A stretch of 64,000 nucleotides of DNA, taken from assembly GCF_963676275.1 (NCBI RefSeq), contig NZ_OY781091.1:248001-312000 (forward strand), in the 5' to 3' direction. This DNA is from an uncultured Cohaesibacter sp. (GTDB lineage Bacteria > Pseudomonadota > Alphaproteobacteria > Rhizobiales > Cohaesibacteraceae). A model generated the notes under the pieces. It ran no database searches. It had not been told where the DNA came from and saw only the letters and a list, made by a program, of their open reading frames with translations. The position numbers and the translations under genes were made by a program. Each line of letters opens with the position of its first letter. The first letter of the stretch is position 1. Of the stretch, positions 1,991-32,311 are shown piece after piece.

Positions 1991-2142
1991 TCCGATCAGA
2001 GAAACCAGCAAGCTGAGGGCGGCTATCCTCCCGCTGCCCTCGGCACCTAAGTGGTTTAGGTAAAATTAACTACGAACTTACACTAAGTTAATAGTCTCCC
2101 CTTACATTTTTGCGGAATGTCTCTCTTGGGTTGGAGTGTTCC

Positions 2143-4170
2143 ATGCAATTCAGTATTTCGCGGAAGCTGGCTATTGTTTTTGGCGGACTTGTTGCCGTCT
2201 CCCTGTCTCTGGGGTATCTGTCACACAATCTGTTGACTTCAGTCGGGCGCGACGGAGAGCGGATCGGACTGGAATTGGCTCCCCTTGGTGATGCGGCCAT
2301 GGAGATCAAGCTGACGGCCACCCGTGCCCATCTTCTTTTCGAGGAAATCATGTCCGGGGATGAGGGCGAGAGCATCGACGAGGTCTGGTCACTGCTGGAT
2401 GAAACCAAATTCTATGCCAATGCCATCCTCAATGGCGGCAGCAATGACGAAGGCACCTTCCATCCCACCCAATCCGCAGCCGTAAGAGACAAGATCACGC
2501 AGGTCGACGCAGCGATTGCGCAATTCATTGAAGCTGCCAAGTCCCGTTATGCGACACTGGCGCAGGATCAGGGTGTCGGCTCTGGCGCAGACGAGACATT
2601 CGACGCGCTCTATGATGATCTGACCGACCGGATTGCCCAAACCGCAAGCAACCATGCTTATGATCCTTTGGCGCAGAAAGCTGCCGGTGAAGCGCGCTAT
2701 CATCTGGCACATGGCCACTTGCTGGTGGCCGAAATTCTGGGAGGTGACGATGGCGAAGATTTCACCGAGGCGACAGACAGCTTCAAGGCAGCAGGTACGG
2801 CGCTGACAAACCATTCCGCCCTCAAGGGCGAAGAGGCCATTCTCAAGGACATCGCCCGGCTGACAGATCTGGCCAACCAGCGCTACAGCCAAAGCCAGTC
2901 GACGCAAAATGCCGGTTCCGGTGCCGATGCTGCCTTTGACGAGACCTTCGAGCAATTCATCCAGTTGGCCGATGACGCGGAAACCGTCATTCATGAAGAC
3001 ATGGCCAAGCAGCTGGTTTCGCTGCACGATACCAGTTTACGGTCCGATGCCATGCTGATAGTCGGAACCCTGCTGATGACCTTATTTGCAGGAGCGAGCT
3101 GGATCTATTTCAGCCGGACAATCGGACGCCGCGCCGATCAGCTTTCCAATTGTGCGGGCGATCTTGCCACCGGTAATCTGGATGCGGAATTGCCCAGCTG
3201 GACTTCGAGTGATGAACTTGGTCATCTGCATGAGACTTTGGGAGCTTTCAAGGCTTCGCTCATCGAGCAGCGGCAACTGGCCGAGCAGGTGGAGCGTGAG
3301 CGGGAAAATCAGACAGAAGATCGCAAGCGTCTGATGCACAAGCTGGCGTCCGATTTCCGGAGCAGCACGGAAGCCGTTCTGGGCGCTTTGGATGGAGCAA
3401 CCGAGGATCTCAAGTCGGCGGTGCAGACCACCAGCAACGCGACGAAACAATCCGGCGCGACGGTGGATTCCACCATCAATGCAGCCAATAGCGCCTCAAG
3501 CAAGGTGGAAACAGTGGCCGCAGCCGCCGAGGAGCTGGCCTCCTCCATCGATGAAATCGGTCGACAGGTGGAAGACACCGTAACGGTGGTGACCAACGCC
3601 AGCAAGCAGGCCGATCTGACCAACCAGAAAATTTCGAACCTTGCCAACGCGGCGGACAAGATCGGAGAAGTTGTCATTCTCATTCAGGCCATTGCCGAAC
3701 AGACAAATCTCTTGGCGCTGAACGCGACGATTGAAGCGGCCCGGGCCGGAGATGCTGGCAAGGGATTTGCTGTTGTGGCGGCTGAAGTCAAGGATCTTGC
3801 GACCCAGACATCGAAAGCGACGGAAGAAATCGGCAGCCAGATTGCCGCCATCCAGTCTGAGACCCGCGACGCGGTGATGGCCATCGAATCGATCTACAGC
3901 ACCATGACGGAAGTGGATGACAAGACATCCAGCATCTCCAACTCCATCATTCAGCAGGGCACGGCAACGAACGAGATTGCAGGCAACGCGCAGGATACCT
4001 CTAGCCAGACAAGTCTGGTGACCCAGAATATGCTCAAGATGCATGAGGCAATGCAGACCTTGCTCACCACATCCTCCACCCTGTCCAGCCGCTCGGACGA
4101 GGTCCGGCAACAGTCCGGTAATCTCAGAGGATCTCTGGACGAATTTCTCGCCCGGCTTGAAGCTTCCTGA
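2143..4170 (+). CDS. Methyl-accepting chemotaxis protein
   Basis: 675-residue transmembrane chemoreceptor. A first membrane helix lies near residues 8-28, a largely helical periplasmic sensor of about 270 residues follows, then a second helix near 302-324, a HAMP domain (about 325-378) and a long coiled-coil signalling domain. The conserved tip that binds CheA and CheW is around residues 515-562 ([18 protein letters not shown], then [10 protein letters not shown]). I chose the ATG at 2143 because GGAG sits six bases upstream; an in-frame TTG at 2110 lacks this. The gene is monocistronic, between a galacturonidase and the SQ locus. The ligand cannot be read from the sequence; a locally metabolised sugar acid or sulfosugar is a guess. 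Confidence 0.93.
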
Positions 4171-4739: not shown

Positions 4740-6086
4740 ATGTCCGTTGAAAGACCATGCATCGGAGTCGTGGCCTTGGGAAGGCCGACTTTTGATGTTC
4801 CCTATGCAGAAGAAATTCTCGCCAAAGCCTGGAAGAGCCTTGAGGCTTTGGATGTCGAGCTGATTGGCAAGCCCGAATTGCTGTTTGATGCAGATGCCGT
4901 ACTTGCTGCTCTGCCAGCCCTGAAAGCGCGCAAGCTCGACATGCTTCTGTTGCTGCAAGTGACATTCACGGATGCCACCATGACCGTGGAGCTGGGAAAG
5001 GAAATCGACGCTCCACTGGTGATGTGGTCCTTCCCGGAAGAGAGAACCGGCGGGCGTCTGCGCCTCAATTCCTTCTGCGGCGTCAATCTGGCCAGCCATG
5101 CATTGAGCCGCAACGATCTCGCCATCGACTATATTCATGATGCGCCTGAAAGCCCGGCGGCCCGCGAACAGCTTATGGTGCTGGCCCGCGCTGGCGCTGT
5201 GGTCAATGATCTCGACGGTGCCCGCATGAAGCTTGTGGGGCATCATCCCGACGGCTTTGATGCCTGTAACTTCAAGGCCGAACAGCTGAAGGAACGGTTC
5301 GGTGTCGAAGTGGACCAGACCCCGATCCTTGATTTTATCGAAGAAGTCAAAGCGCTGCCGGATTCTGTCGCCGATGCGCCCTATGCGCGCCGCGCCAAGG
5401 ATTTCCCCAATCTGGCCGAGCTTGATCAGGATGCGACCCGCAAGACCCTCAAGGTCTATTCCAAACTGCGCAAGGAAGCCGACGAACAGGGCTACAAGGG
5501 CATTGCCGTGCGCTGCTGGCCTGACTTTTTTGTCGAATATGGCTGTGCGGCCTGTGGGGCGCTGGCGCTGCTCAATGAAGATCATACCCCCGGTGGCTGC
5601 GAAGCCGACATGCTGGGCGTGCTGACATCGGTCATTTTGCAAAATGCCTCTGGTGGCAGCGTCTTCAACACCGATCTTGTCGATGTCAATCTTGAGGATG
5701 ACACCATCGTCTTCTGGCATTGCGGTCAGGCGCCCATCGATATGGCTGACCGGGACCAGACCATTCAGGGTACGATCCATTCCAACCGCAAGCTGCCATT
5801 GCTGTCCGAATTTGCGCTCAAGCCCGGACGCATCACTGTTGCTCGCCTGTCACAGGGACATGAGAAGCTGCGCCTCGTTCTGGCGGGGGCAGACATGATC
5901 AAGGCTCCACTGGCCTTCTCCGGCACGGCCGGGGTGGCCCGGCCGGATATCCCGGTTGCCCAGTTCCTTGATCGCATGATTTGCGAAGGCCTTGAGCATC
6001 ATACCGCGCTGACCTATGGCGAGCATCGTCCGGTTTTGCGGGCGATTGCCAAACGCCTTGGAATCGAAGTGGTTGAGTTGACCTGA
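4740..6086 (+). CDS. L-fucose/L-arabinose isomerase-like protein, candidate sulfoquinovose isomerase
   Basis: 448-residue protein of the L-fucose/L-arabinose isomerase superfamily, which interconverts aldoses and ketoses with a divalent metal. In this locus the expected reaction is sulfoquinovose to sulfofructose. E. coli uses the unrelated AGE-fold enzyme YihS; sulfo-EMP2 and sulfo-transketolase loci are, as I recall, described with an isomerase of this type (SqvD). Probable metal-site residues include Glu288 in GGCEADM and His327 in FWHCGQAP, placed by position only. The start ATG at 4740 has GGAGGAG just upstream, whereas the upstream in-frame TTG at 4719 does not. It is first in a same-strand run with TRAP genes and the sulfoquinovosidase. 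Superfamily is firm; substrate is inferred from context. Confidence 0.78.
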   Translation: MSVERPCIGVVALGRPTFDVPYAEEILAKAWKSLEALDVELIGKPELLFDADAVLAALPALKARKLDMLLLLQVTFTDATMTVELGKEIDAPLVMWSFPEERTGGRLRLNSFCGVNLASHALSRNDLAIDYIHDAPESPAAREQLMVLARAGAVVNDLDGARMKLVGHHPDGFDACNFKAEQLKERFGVEVDQTPILDFIEEVKALPDSVADAPYARRAKDFPNLAELDQDATRKTLKVYSKLRKEADEQGYKGIAVRCWPDFFVEYGCAACGALALLNEDHTPGGCEADMLGVLTSVILQNASGGSVFNTDLVDVNLEDDTIVFWHCGQAPIDMADRDQTIQGTIHSNRKLPLLSEFALKPGRITVARLSQGHEKLRLVLAGADMIKAPLAFSGTAGVARPDIPVAQFLDRMICEGLEHHTALTYGEHRPVLRAIAKRLGIEVVELT

Positions 6087-6152
6087 CGCTGCCAACGCAT
6101 GCCGATGGGTAATGTCGGCATGCGCTCCAGTCCGGATTTCTTTCAAACGGGA

Positions 6153-6686
6153 ATGAAACTAATGTTGGCAACTATTGAAAAAGGCCTCAACGGCATCAAT
6201 GCTCCTCTGAGCAAGATCGGCAGTTGGGTTGGCGGATTGATGCTGGTCGTCATGACCGTGATTGTCCTGCTGCAGGTGCTGTTCCGCTATATCCTGAATA
6301 TGCCATTGAGCTGGACCGATGAAGCCTCGCGCTTTCTGATGATCTACATGACCTATCTGTGCCTGCCTCTGATTTATCTGCAGGACAAGAATATCGCCAT
6401 GACCTTTCTGCTCGATGCCATGCATGGCACGCGCATCCGTCACCTGCTGATGGTGGTGATCCATATATTGGTCATCCTTACCTTTCTGGTCTGGATCAAG
6501 TTTGGCTATGACTTCTTCCTGCGCGGCACCAGTCATGCCGACAGCCTGCCGATCAAGATGAATGTCATCTATATCGCGCCACCATTGCTGATGGCGATCA
6601 CGCTGCTTTCGGCCTTGCAGAAGATCATTTCCGAGCTGCGCCAGTTTCTCCATTTCACTCCAGCAGATAGCGCCCCAAAAGCCTGA
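6153..6686 (+). CDS. TRAP transporter small permease (DctQ family)
   Basis: Small four-helix membrane subunit of a TRAP transporter. Hydrophobic segments fall at about residues 20-45, 60-80, 95-120 and 140-165, and RYILNMPLSWTDEASRF is the usual DctQ-type loop after helix one. The frame is open back to an ATG at 6099, but no ribosome site precedes that; the starts at 6153 or 6162 sit behind GGGA at 6149-6152 and are preferred. It follows the isomerase by fewer than 70 bases and is 30 bases from the large permease, so it belongs to the same transcript. Inferred cargo: sulfoquinovose or its glycerol glycoside, both sulfonate anions, which suits a TRAP system. Confidence 0.9.
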   Translation: MKLMLATIEKGLNGINAPLSKIGSWVGGLMLVVMTVIVLLQVLFRYILNMPLSWTDEASRFLMIYMTYLCLPLIYLQDKNIAMTFLLDAMHGTRIRHLLMVVIHILVILTFLVWIKFGYDFFLRGTSHADSLPIKMNVIYIAPPLLMAITLLSALQKIISELRQFLHFTPADSAPKA

Positions 6687-6716
6687 AGGGCGAGGACGTA
6701 GACGAGGAAAATAGTC

Positions 6717-8006
6717 ATGGTTTCTCCGATTTTTGCCGTTTATTTCCTGATCCTTCTGGTCATCGGCGTTCCGGTTCTCTTTGCGCTCGGGCTGTCCCCG
6801 GCGATTGCCTTGTTGCAAGCCGACAAGGTGCTGTTTATGAATTTGCTCTACCAGCGGCTTTATGCCGGTCTGGACAATTTCCTGCTGCTTGCGCTGCCAT
6901 TCTTCATGCTGGCCGGTGAATTCATGGTCAATGGTGGCATCACCACCCGCATCATCAGCTTCTCCCAGAAGATGGTCCAGCATATGCGCGGCGGGCTTGG
7001 GCATGTGGTGATCATTTCCGCCACCCTGTTTGGTGCCCTGACCGGATCGTCCGTGGCGGCTACCTCGGCCATTGGCAACATGATGATCCCCGAGATGGAG
7101 CGCTTCAAATATGATCGCACCTATGCGGCAGCCATCACGGCGGCGGCGACGGTTCTGGGCACGATCATCCCGCCCAGCGGCATCATGCTGATCTATGCCT
7201 TCGTGATGAATACCTCGGTCGCCGCCATGTTCATGTCCGGTATCGTGCCCGGCCTGATCCTCTGTGTTGCGCTGATGATCGTCAATCGCTGGCAGATCCA
7301 GAAATATCCCGCAGTGGAGCAGTTTGAAAGAGCGCCGCGCGCCGAGCGCAGTGCGGCTTTCAAGGCAGCGATCCTGCCATTGCTGACCCCGGTCATCATT
7401 CTGGGCGGCATCTATGGCGGTATCTTCACGCCGACCGAAGCGGCAGCGGTTGCGGTCTTCTATGCCTTTATCCTGTCGGTCTTCATCATGCGCATCCTCA
7501 AGCTCAGGGATGTCTTCCCGATGTTTGTGCGCATTGCCATCAATGCCGGGGCGATCCTGATCATTGTGGCAGCGGCCAGCGGCTTTGCTTCGGCCATTTC
7601 ACTGTCGGGTGTTGCCCAGAATATCACCCAATTCTTCTATTCGGTGACGGACAATCCCTATCTGTTGTTCTTCATCATGAATATCTTTCTGTTCTTTGTC
7701 GGCATGTTCCTGGATGCAGGTCCGGCCATTCTGATCTTTGCCCCCATTCTGGCACCGATCATGACCAATGTTGGCATCGACCCGATCCATTTCGGGGTTG
7801 TCATGGTGGTCAATCTGTCCATCGGTCTGGCAACACCGCCGATGGGACTGGTGCTCTTTGTGGCCTCCGGCGTGTCCGGTGTGCCTTTGCAGAAAATCTC
7901 GAAAGCGATCATCCCGTTTCTGTTGGCAGAGGCCTTGGTGATCTTCTTGATTTCGTTCTTCCCGCCACTCGTTATCGGCTTGCCGAAACTGCTTGGAATG
8001 ATGTGA
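6717..8006 (+). CDS. TRAP transporter large permease (DctM family)
   Basis: 429-residue, very hydrophobic protein of full DctM length, the channel-forming subunit of a tripartite ATP-independent transporter. Typical segments are LLALPFFMLAGEFM near residue 58, LTGSSVAATSAIGNMMIPEM near 110, IIPPSGIMLIYA near 150, PTEAAAVAVFYA near 240 and FLDAGPAILIFAPIL near 335. GAGGAA before the ATG supports the start. It lies between the small permease and the binding protein (order Q-M-P). Together they would import the anion that the neighbouring glycosidase and isomerase process. Transport of sulfoquinovose by a TRAP system is inference from location. Confidence 0.93.
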   Translation: MVSPIFAVYFLILLVIGVPVLFALGLSPAIALLQADKVLFMNLLYQRLYAGLDNFLLLALPFFMLAGEFMVNGGITTRIISFSQKMVQHMRGGLGHVVIISATLFGALTGSSVAATSAIGNMMIPEMERFKYDRTYAAAITAAATVLGTIIPPSGIMLIYAFVMNTSVAAMFMSGIVPGLILCVALMIVNRWQIQKYPAVEQFERAPRAERSAAFKAAILPLLTPVIILGGIYGGIFTPTEAAAVAVFYAFILSVFIMRILKLRDVFPMFVRIAINAGAILIIVAAASGFASAISLSGVAQNITQFFYSVTDNPYLLFFIMNIFLFFVGMFLDAGPAILIFAPILAPIMTNVGIDPIHFGVVMVVNLSIGLATPPMGLVLFVASGVSGVPLQKISKAIIPFLLAEALVIFLISFFPPLVIGLPKLLGMM

Positions 8007-8080
8007 GCGGGCTTTAGGAGGAGGCCGGCAGTGAAAAGAGGAAGCTCTGTCGGCAACATATTTACCAGTGGAGGTAACCC

Positions 8081-9133
8081 ATGAATATCAAAGCACTAGG
8101 ACTGTCCATACTGACCGCCGGACTGCTTTCTGCTGCCGCACAGGCCGCAGACTACAAGCTGACGGTTCCGCATGTGACCAATATCGACAGCTATAACCAT
8201 CAGTCGCTGCTGGTGTTCAAGAATTTTGTCGAGAACCATTCCAACGGCGCGATCGAGGTTGAAATTTTCCCAAGTGGCCAGCTGTGCGGCAATGCCCGCG
8301 AGTGCCTCTCCGGTGTGCAGTCCGGTATCTTTGATTATTTCCAGACCACCATTCCGGAACTGGCCAACTATTGGCCGCCGGTCGGAGCCTTCGACCTGCC
8401 CTATATGCTGCGCGATGACCGGGTAGCCGAATGCGTCTATGACAATGAGGATTTCCTCGCTGACGTGCGCACCAACGTGCTTGAGCAGACCCAGAATCTG
8501 CGTCTGATGATGGTGTCCAACTCGGGCGGCTGGCGCAATTTTGCCACCACCGACAAGCAGGTTAAAAGCCCCGAGGATATCAAGGGGCTGAAGATCCGGA
8601 CGGTGCCGGCACCGATCCAGCAGGAGCTGGTCAAGGCGCTTGGTGGCGCTCCAACCCCGATTTCCTGGCCGGAGGTTTATACGGCTCTGTCCACCGGCGT
8701 GGTTGATGGCACCAAGAATGGTATCGTCGATATCACCACCATGAAATTCGAGGAAAGCCTCAACTATATCGTGCTTGATGGCCATGCCTATATGGGCGGT
8801 GTCTGGGTGATGAATAATGACCGTTTTGAATCCTTCCCCGATGAGCTGAAGCGCGTCGTCATCGATGGCGTGGCAGCGCAGAACCAGTTCCTGCGCGTCT
8901 ATCCGAAATGGAAGGAATTCGACGCATACGAAACCTTCCGCAAGGCTGGCGGCACCATCTATACGCCAACCGCCGAAGAGAAGAAGGCCTTCCAGGAAGC
9001 CACCGCGCCCGTAAAAGACTTCTTCATCAATGAAGTTGGCGAGCCGGGCAAGGAATGGCTGAACCGCTTTGAAAGCGAAATCAAATCCTGTGAATCCAGA
9101 CTGGATGCCGATTTCTCCAAGGCTTCCAAATAG
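8081..9133 (+). CDS. TRAP solute-binding protein (DctP family), probable sulfoquinovose or SQ-glycoside receptor
   Basis: 350-residue periplasmic binding protein with an N-terminal signal peptide that ends after AQAA at about residue 22. DctP-type features are the segment NSGGWRNFATT, then GLKIRT with the arginine that in characterised family members pairs with the substrate acid group, and TALSTGVVDGTKNG. The ATG follows GGAGGTAACCC, a strong ribosome site. It is the third gene of the TRAP unit and is followed by a strong stem-loop at 9153-9173 before the sulfoquinovosidase gene. The predicted ligand carries a sulfonate instead of a carboxylate, which would be unusual for the family. Family firm, ligand inferred. 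Confidence 0.92.
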   Translation: MNIKALGLSILTAGLLSAAAQAADYKLTVPHVTNIDSYNHQSLLVFKNFVENHSNGAIEVEIFPSGQLCGNARECLSGVQSGIFDYFQTTIPELANYWPPVGAFDLPYMLRDDRVAECVYDNEDFLADVRTNVLEQTQNLRLMMVSNSGGWRNFATTDKQVKSPEDIKGLKIRTVPAPIQQELVKALGGAPTPISWPEVYTALSTGVVDGTKNGIVDITTMKFEESLNYIVLDGHAYMGGVWVMNNDRFESFPDELKRVVIDGVAAQNQFLRVYPKWKEFDAYETFRKAGGTIYTPTAEEKKAFQEATAPVKDFFINEVGEPGKEWLNRFESEIKSCESRLDADFSKASK

Positions 9134-9152
9134 TTTGCCATGAAAGCAATGA

Positions 9153-9173
9153 GGAGGGGGCGCGCCCCCCTCC
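9153..9173 (+). other. Stem-loop after TRAP binding-protein gene
   Basis: GGAGGGGG (9153-9160) pairs with CCCCCTCC (9166-9173) around a five-base loop, twenty bases after the binding-protein stop. No T-tract follows, so it is not a standard terminator. One of five such hairpins behind binding-protein genes in this window; a role in 3' mRNA protection is inferred. Confidence 0.6.
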
Positions 9174-9277
9174 ATCTCCCGCCATGACAGACCAGACGCA
9201 AAATCAACCCGCATAGCGCTGCTTTTCTGCATTCCGATTGCCTTCGGCATTCACAAGAGTAGATCGAGGGAAAAGAC

Positions 9278-11299
9278 ATGAAATTCGAAAGATCCGAAAC
9301 CGGCTTCATACTCTCGCACAAGGGCCGGATAGTGCTGCGCCATTCCCACAGCTCACCAATCCTGTTTGTCGGCAGGGGCAACGCCACCTACGACATGTAT
9401 CGCGGCAATTTCGACATCAGGGACTATGTCAGCGAGCGGATAGCCCTGCGCTGTTTCGTGCTCAAGGGCGACGGCCAGACCATCGGCATCGACTTTCATT
9501 ATGAGGGGGAACACCAGATCACCCTTAGCGCCGAGGAAACCCCTGAAGGGCGTCTCAAGATCAGTTTTCTTGATGCAAGGGAAGGCCTCAACAGGGTCTG
9601 GCTGCGGCTTGATGCCAGCAAGGATGAAAAGATCTATGGCTGCGGCGAACAGCTGACCTATTTCAATCTCAGGGGCCACAATTTCCCGCTCTGGACCTCC
9701 GAGCCCGGCGTCGGACGCAACAAGGCCAGCTATATCACCTTTCAGGCCGATGTGAAGGATCGGGCGGGCGGCGACTATTACAACACCAATTATCCGCAGC
9801 CGACCTTCCTTTCCAGCGAGCGCTATTTCGTGCATCTGCAAACCACGGCCTATGCCGATTTCGACTTCCGGCACGAGGAATTTCACGAATTGCAGTGCTG
9901 GGCCATTCCCGACCATCTGCTGTTTGACTGCGAGCCGAGCTTTCCGGCGCTCATGCACAATATCTCCGCCCTGTTCGGCACCCAGCCCGAGCTGCCGGAC
10001 TGGGTGCTCGACGGCGTCATTCTCGGCATTCAGGGCGGAACGGACGTTACGCTAGAGAAGTTGCAGAAGGCGCGGGCGGCGGGCGTCAAGGTGGCAGGGG
10101 CATGGTGTCAGGACTGGCAGGGCATCAAGATGACCTCCTTTGGCAAGCGCCTGCAATGGGACTGGCAATGGAATCCGGAACTCTATCCCGGTCTCGACCA
10201 GAAAATTCATGAGCTGAAGCGCGATGGCATCCGCTTTCTCGGCTATATCAACCCATATGTGCTGGAAGACTTTCCCCTCTATCAGGAAGCGGCAAGCAAG
10301 GGCTATCTGGCCACTCGTCAGGACGGGTCCAAATATGTCGTCGATTTCGGCGAATTCTATTGCGGGGTGGTGGATTTCACCAAGCCCGAGGCTTGCGACT
10401 GGTACAAGGAGGTCATCAAGACCAACATGATCGATTTCGGCCTTGATGGCTGGATGGCCGATTTTGGCGAATATCTGCCGACCGATTGCACTCTGGCCAA
10501 TGGCAAGTCGGCAGAAATCGAACATAATGACTGGCCGCGTCGCTGGGCCAAGATCAATCATGAAGCCATTGAGGAAGCGGGCAAAACCGACGATATCCTG
10601 TTCTTTATGCGCGCAGGCTATACCGGCATTCAGCGCTATTGCCATACGCTTTGGGCGGGCGATCAGTGCGTCAACTGGAATATCGATGACGGCATGCCAT
10701 CGGTGATCAACGGCGCGCTTTCCTCCGGTCTGCTCGGCAATGGCATCCATCATTCCGATATTGGCGGCTATACCACCCTGCACGGCATGAAGCGGGATCG
10801 CGAATTATTCATGCGCTGGGCCGAAATGGCGGCCTTCACCCCCATGATGCGCACCCATGAAGGCAACCGGCCGCTTGACAATCACCAGTTCGATACGGAC
10901 ACCGAAACGCTTTGCCATCTGGCACGCATGACGCGAATCTTTACCCATCTCAAGCCCTATATCAAGGCGGCGGTCAAGGAGAATGCAATGACCGGCATGC
11001 CGGTGCAGCGGCCGCTCTTCATGCATTATGAGGGCGATGCCCTGTCCTATGAAGTCATGTATGAATATCTGTTCGGACGCGATCTGCTCGTTGCCCCGGT
11101 CTATGAGCAGGGGGCCACCAGCCGCAAACTCTATCTACCACCGGATCAATGGATCCATATCTGGAGCTTGGAGCATTATCAGGGCGGCTGGGTCGAAGTG
11201 GAAGCCCCCATTGGCAAGCCGGCAGTCTTTTGTCGCGCGGCCAGTGCTGATGCGGTCCTGTTTGGCAAAATCCCGGATGCTGCCGACGACTTGCTCTAG
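9278..11299 (+). CDS. yihQ: Sulfoquinovosidase (GH31, YihQ-like)
   Basis: 673-residue GH31 alpha-glycosidase that aligns by memory almost end to end with E. coli YihQ, which cleaves sulfoquinovosyl glycerol to free sulfoquinovose. The nucleophile is Asp395 in GWMADFGEYLPTD and the acid/base is Asp462 in WAGDQ, matching E. coli D405 and D472 with a constant offset of ten. Residues I recall as contacting the sulfonate or completing that pocket in YihQ are all kept: Gln278, Arg291, Trp294, Tyr498 and His527 (E. coli Q288, R301, W304, Y508, H537). Ordinary GH31 alpha-glucosidases lack this R-x-x-W pair. No signal peptide, so it is cytoplasmic and the glycoside must be imported intact. It sits 144 bases after the TRAP binding protein, and a terminator follows at 11343. 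Confidence 0.95.
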   Translation: MKFERSETGFILSHKGRIVLRHSHSSPILFVGRGNATYDMYRGNFDIRDYVSERIALRCFVLKGDGQTIGIDFHYEGEHQITLSAEETPEGRLKISFLDAREGLNRVWLRLDASKDEKIYGCGEQLTYFNLRGHNFPLWTSEPGVGRNKASYITFQADVKDRAGGDYYNTNYPQPTFLSSERYFVHLQTTAYADFDFRHEEFHELQCWAIPDHLLFDCEPSFPALMHNISALFGTQPELPDWVLDGVILGIQGGTDVTLEKLQKARAAGVKVAGAWCQDWQGIKMTSFGKRLQWDWQWNPELYPGLDQKIHELKRDGIRFLGYINPYVLEDFPLYQEAASKGYLATRQDGSKYVVDFGEFYCGVVDFTKPEACDWYKEVIKTNMIDFGLDGWMADFGEYLPTDCTLANGKSAEIEHNDWPRRWAKINHEAIEEAGKTDDILFFMRAGYTGIQRYCHTLWAGDQCVNWNIDDGMPSVINGALSSGLLGNGIHHSDIGGYTTLHGMKRDRELFMRWAEMAAFTPMMRTHEGNRPLDNHQFDTDTETLCHLARMTRIFTHLKPYIKAAVKENAMTGMPVQRPLFMHYEGDALSYEVMYEYLFGRDLLVAPVYEQGATSRKLYLPPDQWIHIWSLEHYQGGWVEVEAPIGKPAVFCRAASADAVLFGKIPDAADDLL

Positions 11300-11342
11300 A
11301 GCAGGGGACGCTCAAACCGGCCTGAGTTGAAATCGCAAACAG

Positions 11343-11386
11343 AACCCCCCTCTTTCGGCCTTGGCTGTCAGAGGGGTTTCTTTTTG
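11343..11386 (+). terminator. Rho-independent terminator after sulfoquinovosidase gene
   Basis: AACCCC-CCTCT (from 11344) pairs with AGAGGGGTT (11370-11378), and the run TTCTTTTT follows. It ends the forward isomerase-TRAP-glycosidase transcript 45 bases after the stop codon. Confidence 0.8.
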
Positions 11387-11535
11387 ATATGAGGGCACTG
11401 TTCAGAAGGGGGACTTGTTCCGGGATTGCCTTTTGCCCTCATGCATCCCTCTTTAAGGGGCTGGCTCTGAAATGTCAGCCTGCCTTTGCAGGCCAACTCC
11501 AAGGGATATTCTGCGGGGAAATCTGTCTGTTCAAT

Positions 11536-11569
11536 CAAATAAAAGCCCTGACCCGCAAGGGGTCAGGGG
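11536..11569 (-). terminator. Rho-independent terminator after class II aldolase gene
   Basis: On the minus strand CCCTGACCC and GGGTCAGGG form a nine-base-pair stem (11546-11568), followed by CTTTTATTT. It lies about 60 bases beyond the aldolase stop codon. Confidence 0.8.
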
Positions 11570-11626
11570 GAGAAGGTGTGCTCCAGCCATAGTGGAGGAA
11601 AAAACTCGTGGGAGGACGAGACCTGA

Positions 11627-12490
11627 CTAGAAATCAGAAGCTTTTCCGCTGGAACCAAACAGGCGAATTTTCTCTTTCACCTTTTCTTTCATGATGCGTT
11701 CCGCAGATCCCAATGAATCAGCAAGAACAAAATCTTCCGGATTTTCCTTCCAATAGGCCTGTGCGCCATAGGTGAAGGCCTGACGCAGTTCTGTGTCGAC
11801 ATTGACCTTTGCGATGCCAAGCTTGATGGCGCGCTCAACCTGTTCATCAGGCACACCCGAACCGCCATGCATCACCAGAGGTTTCTGGACGATTTCCTTG
11901 ATTTCCCTGATCCTGTCGAAGGCCAGACGGGGTTCTGCCTTATACATGCCATGGGCGGTGCCGATGGAAATCGCCAGATAGTCCAGATTGGTGCGATCGA
12001 CGAATTCCTGCGCCTCGGCGACCGTGGTGATCATCGCGTCGGCTTCATCCACTGCGATGTCATCTTCCACGCCGCCGATCTTGCCGATCTCGCCCTCGCA
12101 TCCAACGCCCAGCGCATGGGAAACTTCGGCCACGATTTTGGTAATGCGACAATTCTCCTCGAATTCGAGGCCGGAGCCATCAAACATCAGCGAATGAAAG
12201 CCGATGCGGGCCGCTGCCATGGTCTGTGGAAACTGGCGACTGTGATCGAGATGAATGGCCACCGGAGCCGTGATATTGGCCATGAAGGCATCGACAATTG
12301 CCTTCATTTCATCAAGCCCCATGGTGTTGATCACTTTCTGTCCGATCATGACCATGATCGGGGCCTGTTCCTCCTCGGCCGCCTTCAGAATAGCGCGGGT
12401 TGTTTCGGCGTTATGCACGCTGAAAGCGCCGATCGCATATCCTTCTTTCCATGCGCGTTCGATCAGTTTTGTACCGGAAATATAGGCCAT
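11627..12490 (-). CDS. Class II aldolase (FBA/KbaY family), candidate sulfofructose-1-phosphate aldolase
   Basis: 287-residue zinc-dependent class II aldolase. Catalytic Asp82 and zinc ligand His83 lie in HLDHS, Glu134 in GEIGKIGG, and the other zinc ligands are His180 in GTAHG and His208 in MHGGSG; this is the KbaY/GatY arrangement. In this locus it would split sulfofructose-1-phosphate into DHAP and 3-sulfolactaldehyde. E. coli does this with the class I enzyme YihT, so this is a non-homologous replacement; sulfo-EMP2 loci, as I recall, carry a class II aldolase (SqiA). GAGGTAAC precedes the ATG. A 185-base gap upstream with an AAAACAACATTGC box suggests its own promoter. Tagatose- or fructose-bisphosphate cleavage is the alternative. 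Confidence 0.85.
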   Translation of the reverse strand: MAYISGTKLIERAWKEGYAIGAFSVHNAETTRAILKAAEEEQAPIMVMIGQKVINTMGLDEMKAIVDAFMANITAPVAIHLDHSRQFPQTMAAARIGFHSLMFDGSGLEFEENCRITKIVAEVSHALGVGCEGEIGKIGGVEDDIAVDEADAMITTVAEAQEFVDRTNLDYLAISIGTAHGMYKAEPRLAFDRIREIKEIVQKPLVMHGGSGVPDEQVERAIKLGIAKVNVDTELRQAFTYGAQAYWKENPEDFVLADSLGSAERIMKEKVKEKIRLFGSSGKASDF

Positions 12491-12640
12491 TCTGTTACCT
12501 CTTTTTACGCATCCCTAAGATTGCGCCGTGACAGCCGTCGGAGACCTTTTGCACTGCCAATGTGATACTTGGTGTTTCTATGCTGCAAGATTACCAAAAA
12601 TTGATCATTTTCGAAAGTGTTTCAGCGCAATCATGGGCGA

Positions 12641-12653
12641 AAAACAACATTGC
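12641..12653 (+). promoter_or_regulatory. Candidate CsqR-type operator box upstream of aldolase
   Basis: AAAACAACATTGC lies in the 185-base leader of the aldolase gene and resembles the repeated AATACAACA elements in the divergent kinase/reductase promoter at 15488 and 15517. Candidate binding site for the DeoR-family repressor encoded at 16540; the inference rests on sequence similarity alone. Confidence 0.4.
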
Positions 12654-12675
12654 TACACAAATTTCTCAGGAAAAA

Positions 12676-13419
12676 TTACAAAATGTGGAGATTTTTAACC
12701 ACAAGCATGGTGCCAATGATCAAAAGCAGTGAGTGGATGATGCCGTGATAGTTGATCCTGTATTTATGCAGGAGCTGATAGGCGACCATGCCAAGGCTCA
12801 TGCCCACGACAAAGGCGGGAAAGGCATAGGCCACACGCTCGAACACATAGACATCGAGCAACCCCTTGGTCCAGAAGCCGGCAATTGCCCCGACCATTTG
12901 CAGCATGAAGAAGAAGACCAGCGTTGATTTGATCTCATGGGCATTCCATGGCTGCATCGAGCTATAGGCGATGACCGGCGGCCCCGGCTCGCCCACGCTT
13001 GCGCCCAGCGCGCCGGAGAAAAAGCCGACGCCCAGCGTGACGGGCGTGGAAGTCTTCTTGAAAAGCGGGCTGCGGGAGAAGAGGGAATAAAGGCTTGAGA
13101 GGATCAGCACGATGCCCATCGTGATCAGAATGGCCTCTGCGGGCAGGCGCTTGAGCAGATCGGCCCCCAGAAAAGAGCCCGGCAGTGAGCCGACAAAGAG
13201 GATGAGGCCGCTTCTCCATTGCACATTATGACGCATTTTCCAGACAAGAGGAAAGGTCACCAGCCAGCCGAAAATACCAGCGATCGGGACCGCCGCCTTG
13301 ACATCGAGAGCCATGGAGAGCAGCGGCACGCTGACGAGCGCCAGACCAAAGCCGGTCAACCCTTGCGTAAAGCTGCCCAGCGCGATGATCGCCGAAACGA
13401 CGATGATTTCCAAGATCAT
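12676..13419 (-). CDS. TauE/SafE family anion exporter
   Basis: 247-residue membrane protein with about eight hydrophobic helices and the two-fold repeat of the TauE/SafE family: GSFTQGLTGFGLALVSVPLL near the start, and GALGASVGEPGPPVIAY in the middle. Family members export sulfite, sulfoacetate and related anions. It sits in the reverse-strand SQ operon, 68 bases after the mutarotase gene. No desulfonating enzyme is encoded nearby, so the more likely cargo is an organosulfonate end product such as 2,3-dihydroxypropane-1-sulfonate rather than sulfite. The ribosome site is weak (AGGAT before the ATG). Family firm; cargo inferred. Confidence 0.85.
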   Translation of the reverse strand: MILEIIVVSAIIALGSFTQGLTGFGLALVSVPLLSMALDVKAAVPIAGIFGWLVTFPLVWKMRHNVQWRSGLILFVGSLPGSFLGADLLKRLPAEAILITMGIVLILSSLYSLFSRSPLFKKTSTPVTLGVGFFSGALGASVGEPGPPVIAYSSMQPWNAHEIKSTLVFFFMLQMVGAIAGFWTKGLLDVYVFERVAYAFPAFVVGMSLGMVAYQLLHKYRINYHGIIHSLLLIIGTMLVVKNLHIL

Positions 13420-13487
13420 GGGAATATCCTGCCAAAAGGCGGCCGGAGATCAAGGCGAATTGACCTCCGGCCTTCCGGGGATAGGGC

Positions 13488-14543
13488 CTAGCGCGTGCCG
13501 AACCGGTGAAGGGTGCGGTGATGATAAAGCTGATCGGGACGAAGAACCGCAGAAGGGAAGTGCGGCTGGTTTGGCGCGTCCGGGTAACCCTGGGTTTCCA
13601 GACAGAGCCCGCCGAAGGCTTCATATTTACAGCCGTTGCGCCCGATCCATTCCTTGTTGGATAGCTTGAAGGCATTGTAGAACTGGATCGCCGGCTGGGT
13701 GGTCAGCACGGTCATATAGCGCCCCGATGTCGGCTCGTAGAGCTCGGCCGCACGCCAATAGGCACCATCTGTCTCTTTGCAATTGAGAATGAAATTATTG
13801 TCGATGCCGCCATCCCTGACTTTTTCCATGTTGGCACCGATCCGGGTTGGCGTGCGAAAATCCAGCCCGCTCCCCTCCACCGAGAGAATTTCGCCGGTGG
13901 GAATCATATTGTCCGATACCGGGGTGTAGAAATCGGCATGGAGGGTTAATTCATGATCCGCAACGCTGCCGCTATCATGGCCTGCCAGATTGTAATAGCT
14001 GTGATTGACCAGATTGACGATGGTCGGCTGATCGCAACTGGCCGTGAAGTCGTAGCAAACCGCGCCATCCTCGCTCAGGCCAATGGTGTGGCTGACCTGC
14101 AGGCTTCCGGGATAACCGGATTCACCATCGGGCGAGACCCGATGAAAGTGAATGAGAATTGCGTCTTTGCTTTCCTCCAGATCATAGCCCCAGACATATT
14201 TGTCAAAGCCTCTTGCTCCGCCATGCAGATGCTGGCCGGTCGGGGCCTCGTTGGTTTCCAGCTGATAGCTTTGACCATCGATGCAAAAATGGCCATCCCT
14301 GATGCGGTTGGCAAAGCGACCGGCAACCGCTCCGAAGAATGGATGACCGCCCAGATAGCGCTCAAGTGAACCATAGCCCAGCACCACGTCGGCAGTCGCC
14401 CCATGCCTGTCCGGCACTTCGATGCTGGTAACAATGCAGCCATAATTCGTCACACGGATGGTCATGCCGTTGCTGTTGGTCAGCGTGATGAGGTCGGCTC
14501 TTTTCCCGTCCACCTCACCCCAGGCTTCTATTGTCTTTTTCAT
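13488..14543 (-). CDS. Aldose 1-epimerase (GalM family), probable sulfoquinovose mutarotase
   Basis: 351-residue mutarotase. The GalM hallmarks are GRFANRI near residue 76, the catalytic histidines in HLHGGARGFDK (about 105-115) and in VNHSYYNLAG (about 175), and the catalytic glutamate in the C-terminal GGLCLETQGYPD. The frame is open upstream to 14753, but the ATG at 14543 is preceded by GGGAGGAAAGC and gives the normal family length. It lies 19 bases downstream of the sulfolactaldehyde reductase gene and is surely co-transcribed. The glycosidase releases alpha-SQ with retention, so a mutarotase would supply the anomer the isomerase needs; E. coli has YihR in the same role. Substrate inferred. 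Confidence 0.88.
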   Translation of the reverse strand: MKKTIEAWGEVDGKRADLITLTNSNGMTIRVTNYGCIVTSIEVPDRHGATADVVLGYGSLERYLGGHPFFGAVAGRFANRIRDGHFCIDGQSYQLETNEAPTGQHLHGGARGFDKYVWGYDLEESKDAILIHFHRVSPDGESGYPGSLQVSHTIGLSEDGAVCYDFTASCDQPTIVNLVNHSYYNLAGHDSGSVADHELTLHADFYTPVSDNMIPTGEILSVEGSGLDFRTPTRIGANMEKVRDGGIDNNFILNCKETDGAYWRAAELYEPTSGRYMTVLTTQPAIQFYNAFKLSNKEWIGRNGCKYEAFGGLCLETQGYPDAPNQPHFPSAVLRPDQLYHHRTLHRFGTR

Positions 14544-14562
14544 GCTTTCCTCCCTGCCGGAT

Positions 14563-15456
14563 CTATTTCGCCTTGCTTTCAAGGCCGGACAGAACGCGCA
14601 GCTGTTCCAGAATGGCGGTCCAGTCCTGACGTCCGCGACCGGAAACGCGGCTGATATTGTAAAGCTCACGAGAGGCAGCCCCCATCGGCATGGGAACGCC
14701 AACCTGATTGGCCAGATCGAGCGCGATGCCCAGATCCTTATGTGCCAGATCAATCATGAAGGCAGGCGAGAGGTCTCCGGCCAGCACCTTGCCCGGCCAT
14801 GTGGTTGTAAAATGGCCCTTGCCAGCCGGTGTTCCACCGAGAACCGACATGGCCGTGTCGAAATCGAGGCCGATCTTTTCAGAAAGGGCGATGGCTTCTG
14901 CCGAGAGGGCATTGAGTGCGATACTCATGTAATTATTGATGATCTTGACACGGATGCCCTTGCCTGGACCGCCTGCATCCACGGTCTCCGAACCCATGAG
15001 GTCAAAAAGCGGCTGCGCCCGGGCAATCTGCTCTTTCGTGCCCCCGGCCAGAATGAGCAGGGTTCCTGCGATGGCATGATCTGATGTTCGCCCCACCGGC
15101 GCTTCCATCATTTCGATGCCTCGTGCCGCCAGATCCTGTCTCAGCGCATCGGTTTCCAGCGGGTGAATGGTTGACATGTCAATCACCAGCCCATCCTTGG
15201 GCATTGCGGCGGCAACGCCACCGTCTCCCAGCAGAACATCTCTCACCAGAGCACCGTTGGGCAGCATGGTAATGACAAATGAAACCGCGCTTGCAGCCTC
15301 TGCTGCGCTGGAGCAGGCAATAGCTCCTTGCGTGGCCAATTTGTCTACGGCATCCTTGTTGATGTCGAACAGTTTGAGCTGATAGCCTCCCTTGATCAGA
15401 TTGGCAGCCATTGCGGCGCCCATCTGCCCGAGACCGATAAAACCGACAGTCGTCAT
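14563..15456 (-). CDS. yihU: 3-sulfolactaldehyde reductase (YihU-like, beta-hydroxyacid dehydrogenase family)
   Basis: 297-residue NAD(P)H-dependent reductase that closely matches my recollection of E. coli YihU over its whole length. The Rossmann loop GFIGLGQMG is at residues 5-13; MSTIHPL, PVGRTS (with Arg at about 123, proposed to hold the sulfonate), the catalytic-lysine helix VKIINNYMS and the run GKGHFTT are all conserved. It would reduce 3-sulfolactaldehyde to 2,3-dihydroxypropane-1-sulfonate and regenerate NAD. GGGAGGT precedes the ATG. First gene of the reverse operon, divergent from the kinase across a 173-base operator-like region. The general family includes hydroxyisobutyrate and tartronate semialdehyde reductases, but the YihU-specific segments argue against these. 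Confidence 0.92.
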
Positions 15457-15629
15457 TCAGACCTCCCGTTTGAGCGAATTTGATCGTAATACAACATTTG
15501 CAACAAAAACAGACAAAATACAACACATTGATGTTGTTTTTTGATTGTTTTTGGTGATATTTTGGACCCAGAACGCCAAACCCGGAAGACAGGGCGCCTG
15601 CTGGGCGCTGCAAATACAAGGAAATCAGC
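15457..15629. promoter_or_regulatory. Divergent SQ promoter/operator region with repeated AATACAACA boxes
   Basis: AT-rich region between the divergent reductase and kinase genes. The nonamer AATACAACA occurs at 15488-15496 and again at 15517-15525, 29 bases apart. The second copy also forms an inverted repeat, CAACA (15521-15525) with TGTTG (15532-15536). A related box stands upstream of the aldolase gene. A DeoR-type repressor of this kind is encoded just downstream. Exact -10 and -35 elements were not assigned. Confidence 0.6.
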
Positions 15630-16523
15630 ATGAGTGTTGCATGCGTCGGCATCACAGTTCTTGACCGTGTATTCCGCGTCGAGAAACTCCCCGCCAGCGG
15701 TGGCAAATTCGTCGCCAGAGACTATTTCGAAATTGGTGGTGGACCGGCCGCAACCGCAGCCGTTGCCGTGGCGCGGCTGGGCCTGCCTGTCGAATTTATC
15801 GGCAGGGTGGGGACGGATGATGTGGCTCAGGCCATCATCCGCGAGTTTGATCATTATAAGGTTGGCCATCGCTTCACCCGCGAGGTGGACGGTGCCAGTT
15901 CGTCCTTCTCGGCCATCCTTGTCGATGACGAGGGCGAGCGGATGATCATCAATTATCAGGATGACAGCTTGAGCAGGGATCCGGCATGGATGCAGAGCGT
16001 TGATTTCGCAAAGTTCCAGACCGTGTTATGCGATGTCCGTTGGCATGAAGGAGCCGTTCACGCCCTGAAAATGGCGAAAGAAGCCGCCATTCCCAGCATT
16101 CTGGATGCCGATATCACTCCGCAGGACATCAGCGAGCTGGTCGCTTTGGCTGATCATGTGGCGTTTTCCGAACCCGGTTTGGCGAAATTCACACAAACAG
16201 ATGATCTTTTGAGTGGATTGCGCCTTGCCCAGACCAGAACCGATGGTAAAGTCTATGTCACGGCAGGAGCGAATGGCTGCTACTGGCTGGAAAATGGAGA
16301 GGTAGGTCATGTACCGGGCTTCAAGGTGAAGGTTCTGGACACGACCGGTGCCGGTGATGTTTTCCACGGGGCCTTTGCATTCGCTCTGGCGCAGGGTATG
16401 GACATGGCGCAAACGGTTCGATTTGCCAGTGCCGTTGCTGCCCTGAAATGCACGAAACTGGGTGGGCGCGAAGGCATACCGGATCTTGAAACCGTCAACG
16501 CCTTTCTGGCCGCCAACCAATAG
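15630..16523 (+). CDS. yihV: Sulfofructose kinase (YihV-like, PfkB family)
   Basis: 297-residue PfkB-family sugar kinase with close similarity to E. coli YihV, which phosphorylates 6-deoxy-6-sulfofructose at C1. N-terminal CVGITVLDR and GGGPAATAAVA form the sugar site; the C-terminal anion-hole motif DTTGAGDVFHGA carries the catalytic base Asp243. Asn108 in IINYQ and Arg137 in DVRWHEG line up with E. coli N109 and R138, which I recall as contacts for the sulfonated substrate. The YihV-specific tract DITPQDISELVAL is identical. AAGGAAA precedes the ATG. It is transcribed away from the reductase operon and followed after 16 bases by the regulator gene. Strong functional call. Confidence 0.93.
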   Translation: MSVACVGITVLDRVFRVEKLPASGGKFVARDYFEIGGGPAATAAVAVARLGLPVEFIGRVGTDDVAQAIIREFDHYKVGHRFTREVDGASSSFSAILVDDEGERMIINYQDDSLSRDPAWMQSVDFAKFQTVLCDVRWHEGAVHALKMAKEAAIPSILDADITPQDISELVALADHVAFSEPGLAKFTQTDDLLSGLRLAQTRTDGKVYVTAGANGCYWLENGEVGHVPGFKVKVLDTTGAGDVFHGAFAFALAQGMDMAQTVRFASAVAALKCTKLGGREGIPDLETVNAFLAANQ

Positions 16524-16539
16524 ACAGGAAAGAAGTCTC

Positions 16540-17319
16540 ATGCCGGACGCAGTCATTGTCGGGAATCCCCGTCAGGACAAACTTCTAAGGGAAGTCAATG
16601 AGCGTGGCTATATCAGCGTTGAGGAACTGACCGAACTGCTTGATGTTTCGGCGCAAACCATCCGGCGCGACATCAAGAAGCTCAGTGATCAAAAGCTTCT
16701 CATTCGCCATCATGGCGGAGCTGCGCGCAATTCCAGCGTTCTCAATCTCGACTATTCTGTCAGGCAGACATCGGAAACCGAAGAAAAGGAAGCGATTGGC
16801 GAAGCCATCGCGGCCCAGATTCCGGACAACAGCTCGATCTTCATTTCCATCGGCACGACCACGGAGACGATTGCTAAGCATCTGCTGCAAAAGCGCGGGC
16901 TTCAGATCATCACCAACAGCTTGCGGGTGGCCAGTGTGCTCTATCAGAATCCGGACTTCAATGTCATGGTTCCCTGTGGCAAGCTGCGCAGCACCAACGG
17001 CGGCATTCTCGGCTCCACCGCGCTTGATTTCATCAATCATTTCCGCGTCGATTATCTGATCACAAGCTGCGGCTCGATCGACAGCGACGGCACCTTGCTG
17101 GATTATGAATTCAATGAAGTGATCATGGTGCAAAGCATGATGAAGACGGCCCGGAAGATTTTCATTGCGGCCGATTCCACCAAATTCAGCACCAGAGCAA
17201 CCGTCGAGATGGGCCATATCAAGAATATCTCGGCCCTGTTCACAGACAGCCAGCCACCTGCCGACATCCGCATGCAGCTGGATTTGAACGAGGTGAAATT
17301 ATTCGTCTGCAAAGCCTGA
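16540..17319 (+). CDS. csqR: DeoR-family transcriptional regulator of SQ genes (YihW/CsqR-like)
   Basis: 259-residue repressor. An N-terminal DeoR winged helix-turn-helix (about residues 8-62; VSAQTIRRDIKKLS is the recognition region) is followed by RHHGGA and a C-terminal sugar-phosphate-sensing domain with IFISIGTT, ITNSLRVA and AADSTKF. Similarity to E. coli YihW/CsqR, which senses SQ-pathway compounds, is visible throughout, including the opening GNPRQDKLL. The ATG at 16540 follows AGGAAAG; a longer frame beginning inside the kinase gene is unlikely. It shares a transcript with the kinase, implying autoregulation through the divergent region at 15457-15629. Confidence 0.92.
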   Translation: MPDAVIVGNPRQDKLLREVNERGYISVEELTELLDVSAQTIRRDIKKLSDQKLLIRHHGGAARNSSVLNLDYSVRQTSETEEKEAIGEAIAAQIPDNSSIFISIGTTTETIAKHLLQKRGLQIITNSLRVASVLYQNPDFNVMVPCGKLRSTNGGILGSTALDFINHFRVDYLITSCGSIDSDGTLLDYEFNEVIMVQSMMKTARKIFIAADSTKFSTRATVEMGHIKNISALFTDSQPPADIRMQLDLNEVKLFVCKA

Positions 17320-30368: not shown

Positions 30369-30392
30369 TGAATTGTCCTTTCGCGGGGGTGC

Positions 30393-32218: not shown

Positions 32219-32250
32219 GGTTCGATCCTTTGATGCTGTGATGTAAGAGG

Positions 32251-32286: not shown

Positions 32287-32311
32287 TTTCTAGGCAGATA
32301 TTTTGGAGGAT

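Follow-up and report, generated by a model that had tools for sequence, protein, structure and literature searches.

The gene cluster at positions 4740-17319 of a 64,000-nucleotide stretch of Cohaesibacter DNA raises the question of which route it encodes for the breakdown of sulfoquinovose (SQ), a sugar that contains sulfur and occurs in the membranes of plants and algae, and of how this sugar would enter the cell. The stretch, called the window below, comprises positions 248001-312000 of the single 5.03 Mb contig (NZ_OY781091.1) that makes up the genome of an uncultured Cohaesibacter sp. (RefSeq GCF_963676275.1). SQ production amounts to about ten billion tons a year (PMC9594981), and the enzymes of SQ catabolism are well mapped, while import is little discussed in PMC13372026, PMC10755693, and PMC12890257; the word transporter is absent from the former two, and both of its occurrences in the latter concern export.

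The locus very probably encodes a hybrid SQ utilization system of the sulfo-Embden-Meyerhof-Parnas (sulfo-EMP)/sulfo-EMP2 kind that is fed by a dedicated tripartite ATP-independent periplasmic (TRAP) importer. What could be established directly is which genes are present and that they are linked, that four products are orthologous to Escherichia coli proteins, which active-site residues they have, and to which clade the binding protein DctP belongs. The enzymes are of a known hybrid kind, and the importer is the less expected part, which makes the locus a variant worth following. A preliminary description of the DNA had listed nine functions here, and open frames for all nine are present at the places it gave, each matching the profile of its expected family. 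Some start and end details were amended: for the small TRAP permease DctQ both 6099 and 6153 are possible frame starts, the preferred reading of the mutarotase is 13488-14549, since the frame as listed, to 14753, would overlap the reductase, and the repressor start at 16540 is one among several possible.

Four products have close counterparts in E. coli. The GH31 (glycoside hydrolase family 31) product (9278-11299, forward strand) is 55% identical to E. coli K-12 YihQ over 665 amino acids and scores 990 bits against NCBIfam PRK10426, above the cut-off of 553. The pair Asp395/Asp462 and residues Arg291, Trp294, Tyr498, and His527 are found at the positions claimed earlier and align, together with Gln278, with YihQ Asp405, Asp472, Arg301, Trp304, Tyr508, His537, and Gln288, respectively, which presumably have catalytic and sulfonate-pocket roles. 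The best solved matches are the generically named GH31 protein 8r56 and then YihQ, and the product is best read as a YihQ-type sulfoquinovosidase, with hydrolysis of SQ glycosides as its predicted activity. The claimed closeness of the reductase, kinase, and repressor to E. coli YihU, YihV, and YihW (the latter compared as CsqR) was likewise borne out. The reductase (14563-15456, reverse strand) is 64% identical to YihU over 297 amino acids, scores 471 bits against the sulfolactaldehyde 3-reductase model PRK15461 (cut-off 348), and keeps Arg123, Lys171, Asn174, and Ser178, of which Arg123, Asn174, and Ser178 are taken to be the sulfonate-binding residues of the YihU type. The kinase (15630-16523, forward), a PfkB protein (PF00294), is 58% identical to YihV over 294 amino acids, has the sulfofructose kinase 7ag6 as its best solved match (378 bits; the next scores 186), and keeps K26, N108, R137, and D243, with substrate roles assumed from YihV. 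The DeoR-family repressor (16540-17319, forward; PF00455 and PF08220) is 53% identical to CsqR over 253 amino acids.

The other enzymes fall outside the E. coli set, and the comparison with characterized sulfoglycolysis enzymes that had been proposed thus gave four E. coli orthologues together with an isomerase and an aldolase of other types. No protein of the locus matches YihS or YihT at E 0.01, and since matches were found there instead, the isomerase and the aldolase were assigned to the SqvD/SftI and class II types. The isomerase (4740-6086, forward) carries PF02952 (Fucose_iso_C) and matches the SftI model NF048012 over residues 11-445 with 275 bits; the same profile gives 265 bits for the isomerase of the Chimaeribacter hybrid cluster L009 (comparison loci carry L numbers) and 794 bits for that of Paenibacillus L042. 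Its AlphaFold model, with a pLDDT (predicted local distance difference test) score of 94, has 4f2d as best fold match (template modeling score, TM, 0.84 by query) and also resembles 1fui (0.80), so that the protein, as modeled, is of the L-arabinose/L-fucose isomerase fold. The SqiA-type aldolase (11627-12490, reverse; PF01116) is 67% identical to the aldolase of the Yersinia aldovae cluster, and its nearest solved chains are 8q57 and 8q58 (420 and 415 bits), which were deposited under generic aldolase names and are presumably class II sulfofructose-phosphate aldolases. The aldose 1-epimerase (13488-14549, reverse; PF01263) scores 268 bits against PRK11055 (cut-off 240) and is a probable GalM-like SQ mutarotase; its match to YihR is only 29% over 94 amino acids. 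Finally, a TauE/SafE-family carrier (12676-13419, reverse; PF01925, 93 bits) probably exports 2,3-dihydroxypropane-1-sulfonate (DHPS).

Within 12 kb the locus thus combines a SqvD-like isomerase, a YihV-type kinase, a class II aldolase, and a YihU-type reductase, the combination of hybrid sulfo-EMP/EMP2 clusters. The pair that marks canonical sulfo-EMP, YihS (PF07221) with the class I aldolase YihT (PF01791), is lacking, as is the SqiK kinase (PF00365) of sulfo-EMP2, the kinase here belonging to PF00294, and on these grounds the locus is classed as a hybrid. A complete sulfoglycolytic locus therefore stands as the best reading, with a hybrid gene set in place of the E. coli-type one, and its enzymes are well supported as members of an already known hybrid kind that is newly seen in Cohaesibacter and Pseudovibrio. 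Hybrids with SqvD and SqiA have been reported in a Yersiniaceae bacterium (PMC9594981), hybrid clusters are described as occurring across Proteobacteria and Actinobacteria (PMC12890257), and a hybrid with a class II aldolase is at work in Vibrio mediterranei, for which growth of strain AbY-1905 on SQ, DHPS formation, and an isomerase knock-out were reported (PMC13372026).

Comparison with known systems shows where the locus departs from them. With the E. coli yih cluster it shares relatives of YihQ, YihV, YihU, and CsqR (53-64% identical), and the same metabolites are expected; however, it has a metal-type isomerase and a class II aldolase, and TRAP and TauE take the place of YihO and YihP, neither of which has a match in the locus at the threshold used for YihS and YihT. 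The hybrids of Yersiniaceae (PMC9594981; Yersinia aldovae L040, Chimaeribacter L009 and L011) have in common with it the SqvD-like isomerase (59%, with a 69% partial match in L040), the class II aldolase (66-67%), the GalM-like mutarotase (51-52%), and YihV-, YihU-, CsqR-, and YihQ-type proteins, but they have a YihO/YihP-type carrier (65-66% to YihO) and no TRAP or TauE match in the stretches examined. Photobacterium sp. DA100 (L278) shares the class II aldolase (65%), TauE (68%), the mutarotase (63%), TRAP (56-72%), the kinase (61%), the reductase (74%), and the repressor (62%), whereas its isomerase is YihS-type, 69% identical to E. coli YihS, and no sulfoquinovosidase match was found within 20 kb. 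The sulfo-EMP2 cluster of Bacillus urumqiensis, as presented in PMC9594981, has the same SqvD isomerase family and a class II PF01116 aldolase but a SqiK kinase of PF00365, and most sulfo-EMP2 clusters have SqvB where the present locus has the GalM-like mutarotase. An apparent SQ cluster was also noticed on the Zymomonas mobilis ZM4 plasmid pZZM402 (L281, 128-11361), which encodes a class II aldolase (65%), a GalM-like protein (48%), a SqvD-like isomerase (59%), and a GH188-like protein (44%), as well as two major facilitator superfamily carriers, a TonB receptor, and an aldehyde dehydrogenase, with no kinase match in the stretch.

The isomerase and the class II aldolase belong to broad families, which include L-arabinose and L-fucose isomerases and fructose- and tagatose-bisphosphate aldolases, and the true substrate of the locus might on this account be a different sulfosugar (sulfofucose, for example) or a sugar that is neutral or phosphorylated. 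Nevertheless, the residues compared with the catalytic and sulfonate-pocket positions of YihQ are conserved, the kinase is closest to a sulfofructose kinase, the reductase exceeds the sulfolactaldehyde reductase cut-off, and the sulfofucose route published in PMC12421959 is a different, dehydratase-based set, so that a substrate other than SQ appears extremely unlikely.

In the proposed flow, DctPQM would take up SQ and/or sulfoquinovosyl glycerol, driven by an ion gradient, the GH31 enzyme would release alpha-SQ from the glycoside, and the GalM-like mutarotase would aid ring opening or inversion. The SqvD-like isomerase would then form sulfofructose and the YihV-type kinase sulfofructose-1-phosphate, which the class II metal aldolase would cleave to dihydroxyacetone phosphate and sulfolactaldehyde; the YihU-type reductase would convert sulfolactaldehyde to DHPS for export by the TauE-type carrier, and the CsqR-type repressor would control the gene set. 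We infer the activities, the substrates of DctPQM and TauE, the regulation, and the end product, the latter from the YihU-type reductase. The pathway could also be cryptic or have another end, for example if an enzyme encoded outside the locus oxidized sulfolactaldehyde to sulfolactate. An aldehyde dehydrogenase 44-47% identical to that of the Zymomonas cluster does accompany three of 60 related loci (L180, L186, and L222); with a YihU-type reductase above its model cut-off in the locus itself, and present in all nine isomerase-bearing congeners examined, either alternative is very unlikely.

Further DHPS metabolism was sought in the genome with nothing firm emerging. A single gene was found of the histidinol dehydrogenase family, presumably the family of the DHPS enzyme HpsN. 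The genome encodes three glycyl radical enzymes, two of them of the pyruvate formate-lyase type and above cut-offs; at 2708936-2711038 of the source contig (L068), the gene of the third lies beside an iron alcohol dehydrogenase gene and has HpfG as its best substrate-named model, at 697 bits (cut-off 1000). Three PF04295 proteins, of the family of the sulfolactate lyase SuyAB (PMC9594981), have galactarate dehydratase as their only NCBIfam match at E 1e-30, one above and two below the cut-off.

The gene set is conserved as a block. The isomerase occurs in 10 of the 18 genomes of the genus sample, source genome included, and is 92% identical in Cohaesibacter marisflavi, 90% in C. haloalkalitolerans, and 74-83% in four Pseudovibrio records. 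In all nine isomerase-bearing congeners examined it is grouped with the three TRAP genes and those for the sulfoquinovosidase, aldolase, TauE, mutarotase, and reductase, which argues against a chance assembly, and the set is also found in named Cohaesibacter and Pseudovibrio as far as contigs reach. The kinase was seen in eight of these nine loci (the L142 stretch stops short of its position) and the repressor in six (the stretches of L142 and L144 stop short); in congener L138 (genome G291) no CsqR-type repressor was found in the stretch examined, the rest of the catabolic set being present. Base composition gave no sign of a foreign island. Upstream of the isomerase lie a GH4-family glycosidase gene and a gene for a methyl-accepting chemotaxis protein (641-1990 and 2110-4170), and directly downstream, on the opposite strand, is a gene (17512-20325) for a protein of 937 amino acids with 22 matches to RTX calcium-binding repeats. 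Neither the GH4 nor the RTX protein has a match in any of the nine congener stretches, and the chemoreceptor has partial matches in three of them, as expected of a large common family; since these neighbors lie outside the conserved block, the unit was set at 4740-17319.

All three TRAP subunits are encoded between the isomerase and the sulfoquinovosidase, on the forward strand: DctQ (6099-6686, with the start options given above; PF04290, 89 bits), the large permease DctM (6717-8006; PF06808, 367 bits, and TIGR00786, 410 bits with a cut-off of 268), and DctP (8081-9133; PF03480), the proposed SQ/SQ-glycoside binder. In a class sample of 289 genomes, a close DctP (E 1e-55 or better) was found in 11 and the isomerase in six, and in the four genomes with both, source included, the genes lie within about 4 kb of each other. 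Outside Cohaesibacter and Pseudovibrio, DctPs beside SqvD-like isomerases, including those of Desulfococcaceae and SAR324, are 45-52% identical to that of the window in 17 of 18 cases, the remaining one being that of Mailhella (39%). Eight class-sample loci, which are not counted among the 60 loci described below, comprise four with a monooxygenase (L127-L130), three with the isomerase (L133-L135), and one, on a 3.2 kb contig, with neither (L113). For the isomerase-free loci, Pfam detected a luciferase-like monooxygenase in L127-L129 and an aldo/keto reductase in L128 and L129, and tblastn found both in each of L127-L130. The nearest solved structures of the L129 proteins are 7olf/7oh2 (672 and 669 bits) for the monooxygenase and 7bbz/7bby (380 bits) for the aldo/keto reductase, which carry generic names in the PDB and are taken here to be the SQ monooxygenase SmoC and the reductase SmoB. 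The domain set of L129 is that of the sulfo-SMO (SQ monooxygenase) route as described in PMC9594981 and PMC13372026.

This association was quantified in one alphaproteobacterial family, in which 149 of 394 genomes have a DctP match at E 1e-45 or better and 144 have one at E 3e-83 or better (43% identity or more), the other listed matches being at 1.5e-51 or worse (33-37%). Sixty of the 144 close loci, about every second row down the ranking and chosen blind to context, were examined over up to 20 kb each, next to 22 control TRAP loci (two class matches at 36-37%, five family matches at 32-38%, and 15 source-genome paralogues at 26-34%). An SQ monooxygenase-type gene (70% identity or more) lies 3.5-4.9 kb from dctP in 43 of the 60, a SqvD-type isomerase with a YihV-like kinase occurs in 12, and five have neither monooxygenase nor isomerase. 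The reference for the GH188-type sulfoquinovosidase was a Ruegeria protein that matches 8zn9 (generic name; 540 bits), then SqgA 8qc2 and 8qc3 (387 and 379 bits; codes confirmed in PMC10755693); such a gene is near dctP in 54 of the 60 loci and in none of the controls. Altogether, at least one SQ gene is present in 56/60 loci (43 with monooxygenase, 12 with isomerase, and one with GH188 only) versus 0/22 controls (Fisher p 3e-16). A chance neighborhood was discarded, as monooxygenase, isomerase, and GH188 were found in none of the 22 control loci. Seven controls have weak superfamily-level matches only, namely a partial GH31 match of 28% in L250 and matches of 25-43% to the kinase, reductase, regulator, epimerase, or aldo/keto reductase in L240, L241, L244, L246, L255, and L256. 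The window itself contains a second TRAP binding protein gene (52958-54052; 32% to the locus DctP), which served as a control and has no SQ gene nearby by these tests.

The SQ enzymes could be correctly assigned and the TRAP system still import another organosulfonate (DHPS, sulfolactate, or isethionate) or an unrelated acid, and be a mere neighbor. TRAP systems often carry C2-C4 acids, and among solved chains the isethionate-binding DctP 8t9t ranks first by sequence and third by fold. However, DctPs of the same clade are encoded at SQ monooxygenase operons, whose route makes neither DHPS nor sulfolactate, and adjoin GH188 or GH31 sulfoquinovosidases. Furthermore, no YihO-like carrier at 40% identity or more was found beside an SQ-linked TRAP, the 61 isomerase-anchored loci having TRAP in 23 cases, a YihO-like carrier in five, and both in none. 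Moreover, among the 35 DctP-like matches of the source genome, the best paralogues reach only 31-35% identity with that of the locus. A different TRAP substrate is therefore considered unlikely, and the TRAP system of the locus probably imports SQ.

A DctP tree of 113 rows (L255 was left out, its aligned stretch being shorter than 230 residues) places the window DctP in a clade of 90 rows (support 99/95) that contains none of 21 controls. The clade comprises seven rows of the window and its Cohaesibacter/Pseudovibrio kin, 47 monooxygenase-linked, 32 isomerase-linked, and four unlinked rows, and its named members include Roseobacteraceae and Paracoccaceae. The catabolic labels are mixed inside the clade, requiring at best 12 and 10 changes, with 6 and 4 forced by well-supported branches, which suggests that the carrier stayed while the catabolic module changed. 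Twenty-four signature positions are conserved in 97% or more of 107 clade rows and in no more than 25% of 23 others; they include C69, C75, N147, W151, G214, P275, and K276, all present in the window DctP, which served as the reference in deriving the signature, so that it describes the clade and is no independent test of it. R173 is common to all DctP rows compared. The DctP model (mean pLDDT 81) resembles the sialic acid-binding SiaP and the isethionate-binding IseP.

The association extends beyond this family. A close DctP was found in 17 of 398 genomes of a phylum sample, and 11 of the 12 newly examined loci, some of which come from the same family as the 60, pass a strict test for SQ genes (monooxygenase, isomerase, GH31, YihS set, or GH188 at 40% or more). 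Hybrid clusters of the YihS type are present at L267 and L269, and dctP has a GH31 sulfoquinovosidase gene as a neighbor in L266 and L268; L272 carries the isomerase, and L273-L277 carry the monooxygenase. In L271, a GH188-type gene is accompanied by an aldo/keto reductase gene and one of the TauD family, to which the SQ dioxygenase is assumed to belong, and the locus is taken as similar to the SQ dioxygenase (sulfo-SDO) route. The twelfth, L270, meets only a looser test: it encodes a PF00920 dehydratase, a PF03328 aldolase, an aldehyde dehydrogenase, TauE, and a distant GH188-like protein (35%), whose own NCBIfam match is inositol 2-dehydrogenase, below cut-off. PF00920 and PF03328 are families of the sulfo-Entner-Doudoroff route (PMC9594981). 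Among plasmid records, 13 bear the DctP, and SQ genes were present in four of the five examined. Ruegeria sp. TM1040 (L280), Paracoccus seriniphilus (L282), and Rhizobium sp. SL42 (L279) share the gene order Gfo/Idh/MocA (GH188-type), GntR regulator, flavin monooxygenase, aldo/keto reductase, flavin reductase, and TRAP Q-M-P; their DctP and DctM are 47-48% and 43-51% identical to those of the window, whereas their chemistry is oxygenolytic and their sulfoquinovosidase is of the GH188 type. Loci L266-L269 come from one genus of the same phylum outside the class, one genome having two locus copies about 36 kb apart, and their DctPs (57-68% to that of the window) are closer than those of any Alphaproteobacteria seen outside Cohaesibacter and Pseudovibrio, which suggests that the locus has been exchanged between classes.

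A possible connection with SQ-induced genes comes from Vibrio. In L269 and in Photobacterium L278 the same TRAP genes are three of the ten genes of a YihS-type hybrid cluster, and in the ten-gene block of Photobacterium sp. DA100 the TRAP genes are terminal, the isomerase being the fifth gene when counted from their side. SQ induces a ten-gene cluster of V. mediterranei AbY-1905 (locus tags 00105-00150) more than 20-fold, and the isomerase there has tag 00125; the section on this strain does not name the carrier (PMC13372026). If tags step by five, the isomerase would be fifth there too, matching the L269/L278 order counted from the TRAP end, and the more than 20-fold induction would include all three TRAP subunits; this link is drawn from gene order in the L269 genus and Photobacterium, not from AbY-1905 sequence.

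The sulfo-SMO and sulfo-SDO routes release sulfite and lead to glucose, while the other routes lead to DHPS or sulfolactate (PMC9594981, PMC13372026). Since only SQ or its glycosides are common to all TRAP-bearing clusters, an SQ/SQ-glycoside importer independent of the downstream chemistry is inferred, its family having members beside several chemically different SQ pathways. It is likely that the TRAP system belongs to a dedicated SQ/sulfoquinovosyl glycerol importer family, a further class beside the YihO-type and ABC-type (ATP-binding cassette) carriers, that is coupled to hybrid sulfo-EMP (class I or II aldolase; SqvD-like or YihS isomerase) and sulfo-SMO routes and, in one locus each, to dioxygenase-like and Entner-Doudoroff-like routes, and that would serve as a pathway-independent marker of SQ use.

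Several observations weigh against a hybrid SQ system with a dedicated importer. The isomerase, at 275 bits, is below the SftI equivalog cut-off of 700, and Tyr16 and Tyr28 of YihV are replaced by Phe15 and Phe27 in the kinase. Two of the six isomerase-bearing class-sample genomes are without a close DctP, neither carrier type was found in 33 of the 61 isomerase-anchored loci, many of which are cut by contig ends, and four of the 60 close loci have no SQ gene (L204, with the reductase only; L209, a 12 kb stretch; L211; and L235). On a Pacificitalea plasmid (L283) the TRAP genes are not accompanied by SQ genes, a PfkB kinase match of 36% and a TauE annotation being all that was seen. The DctPs of L235 and Mailhella fall outside the clade, and the bootstrap had not settled (0.979), with long branches flagged, so that the fine branching order was not used. 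Finally, an operator shared by the isomerase promoter and the divergent reductase/kinase promoters was sought in the window and eight congeners, and none was established: TGATCG is the only 6-mer in both promoter regions of at least eight of the nine loci (it is in all nine), but as it occurs 1.7 times per kb across the window no operator is claimed.

Among the papers found in open-literature searches for SQ with TRAP terms, none describes an SQ TRAP importer in its title or abstract opening; the roseobacter SQ paper of Liu et al. (2023) may mention a carrier, and priority is not claimed. Judged by the same parts, the papers found concern taurine-degrading gut bacteria, rice, and a halophilic archaeon, and the open-literature search returned no paper for Cohaesibacter with sulfoquinovose. 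Should the importer family be real, a TRAP binding-protein family that persists across exchanges of the catabolic module would provide a direct marker of SQ uptake for metagenomes and a handle on SQ scavenging by roseobacters and vibrios; DctP could be made into an SQ sensor, and the signature residues are targets for mutagenesis.

Some further features were noted in and around these loci. At 28434-33628 the window encodes a GH127-type beta-L-arabinofuranosidase with ABC sugar transporter genes. In C. haloalkalitolerans (L004, 11600-15300), about 3.8 kb separate the sulfoquinovosidase and aldolase genes, containing, by eye, a LysR-like frame and possible membrane proteins. A di-haem cytochrome c peroxidase/MauG-like protein of 530-600 amino acids (e.g., L129, 10657-12420; seen in L127-L129 and L280), whose nearest solved relatives are bacterial di-haem peroxidases, is encoded in 36 of the 60 close DctP loci versus none of the 22 controls, namely in 25 of 43 monooxygenase loci, nine of 12 isomerase loci, and two of the five with neither.

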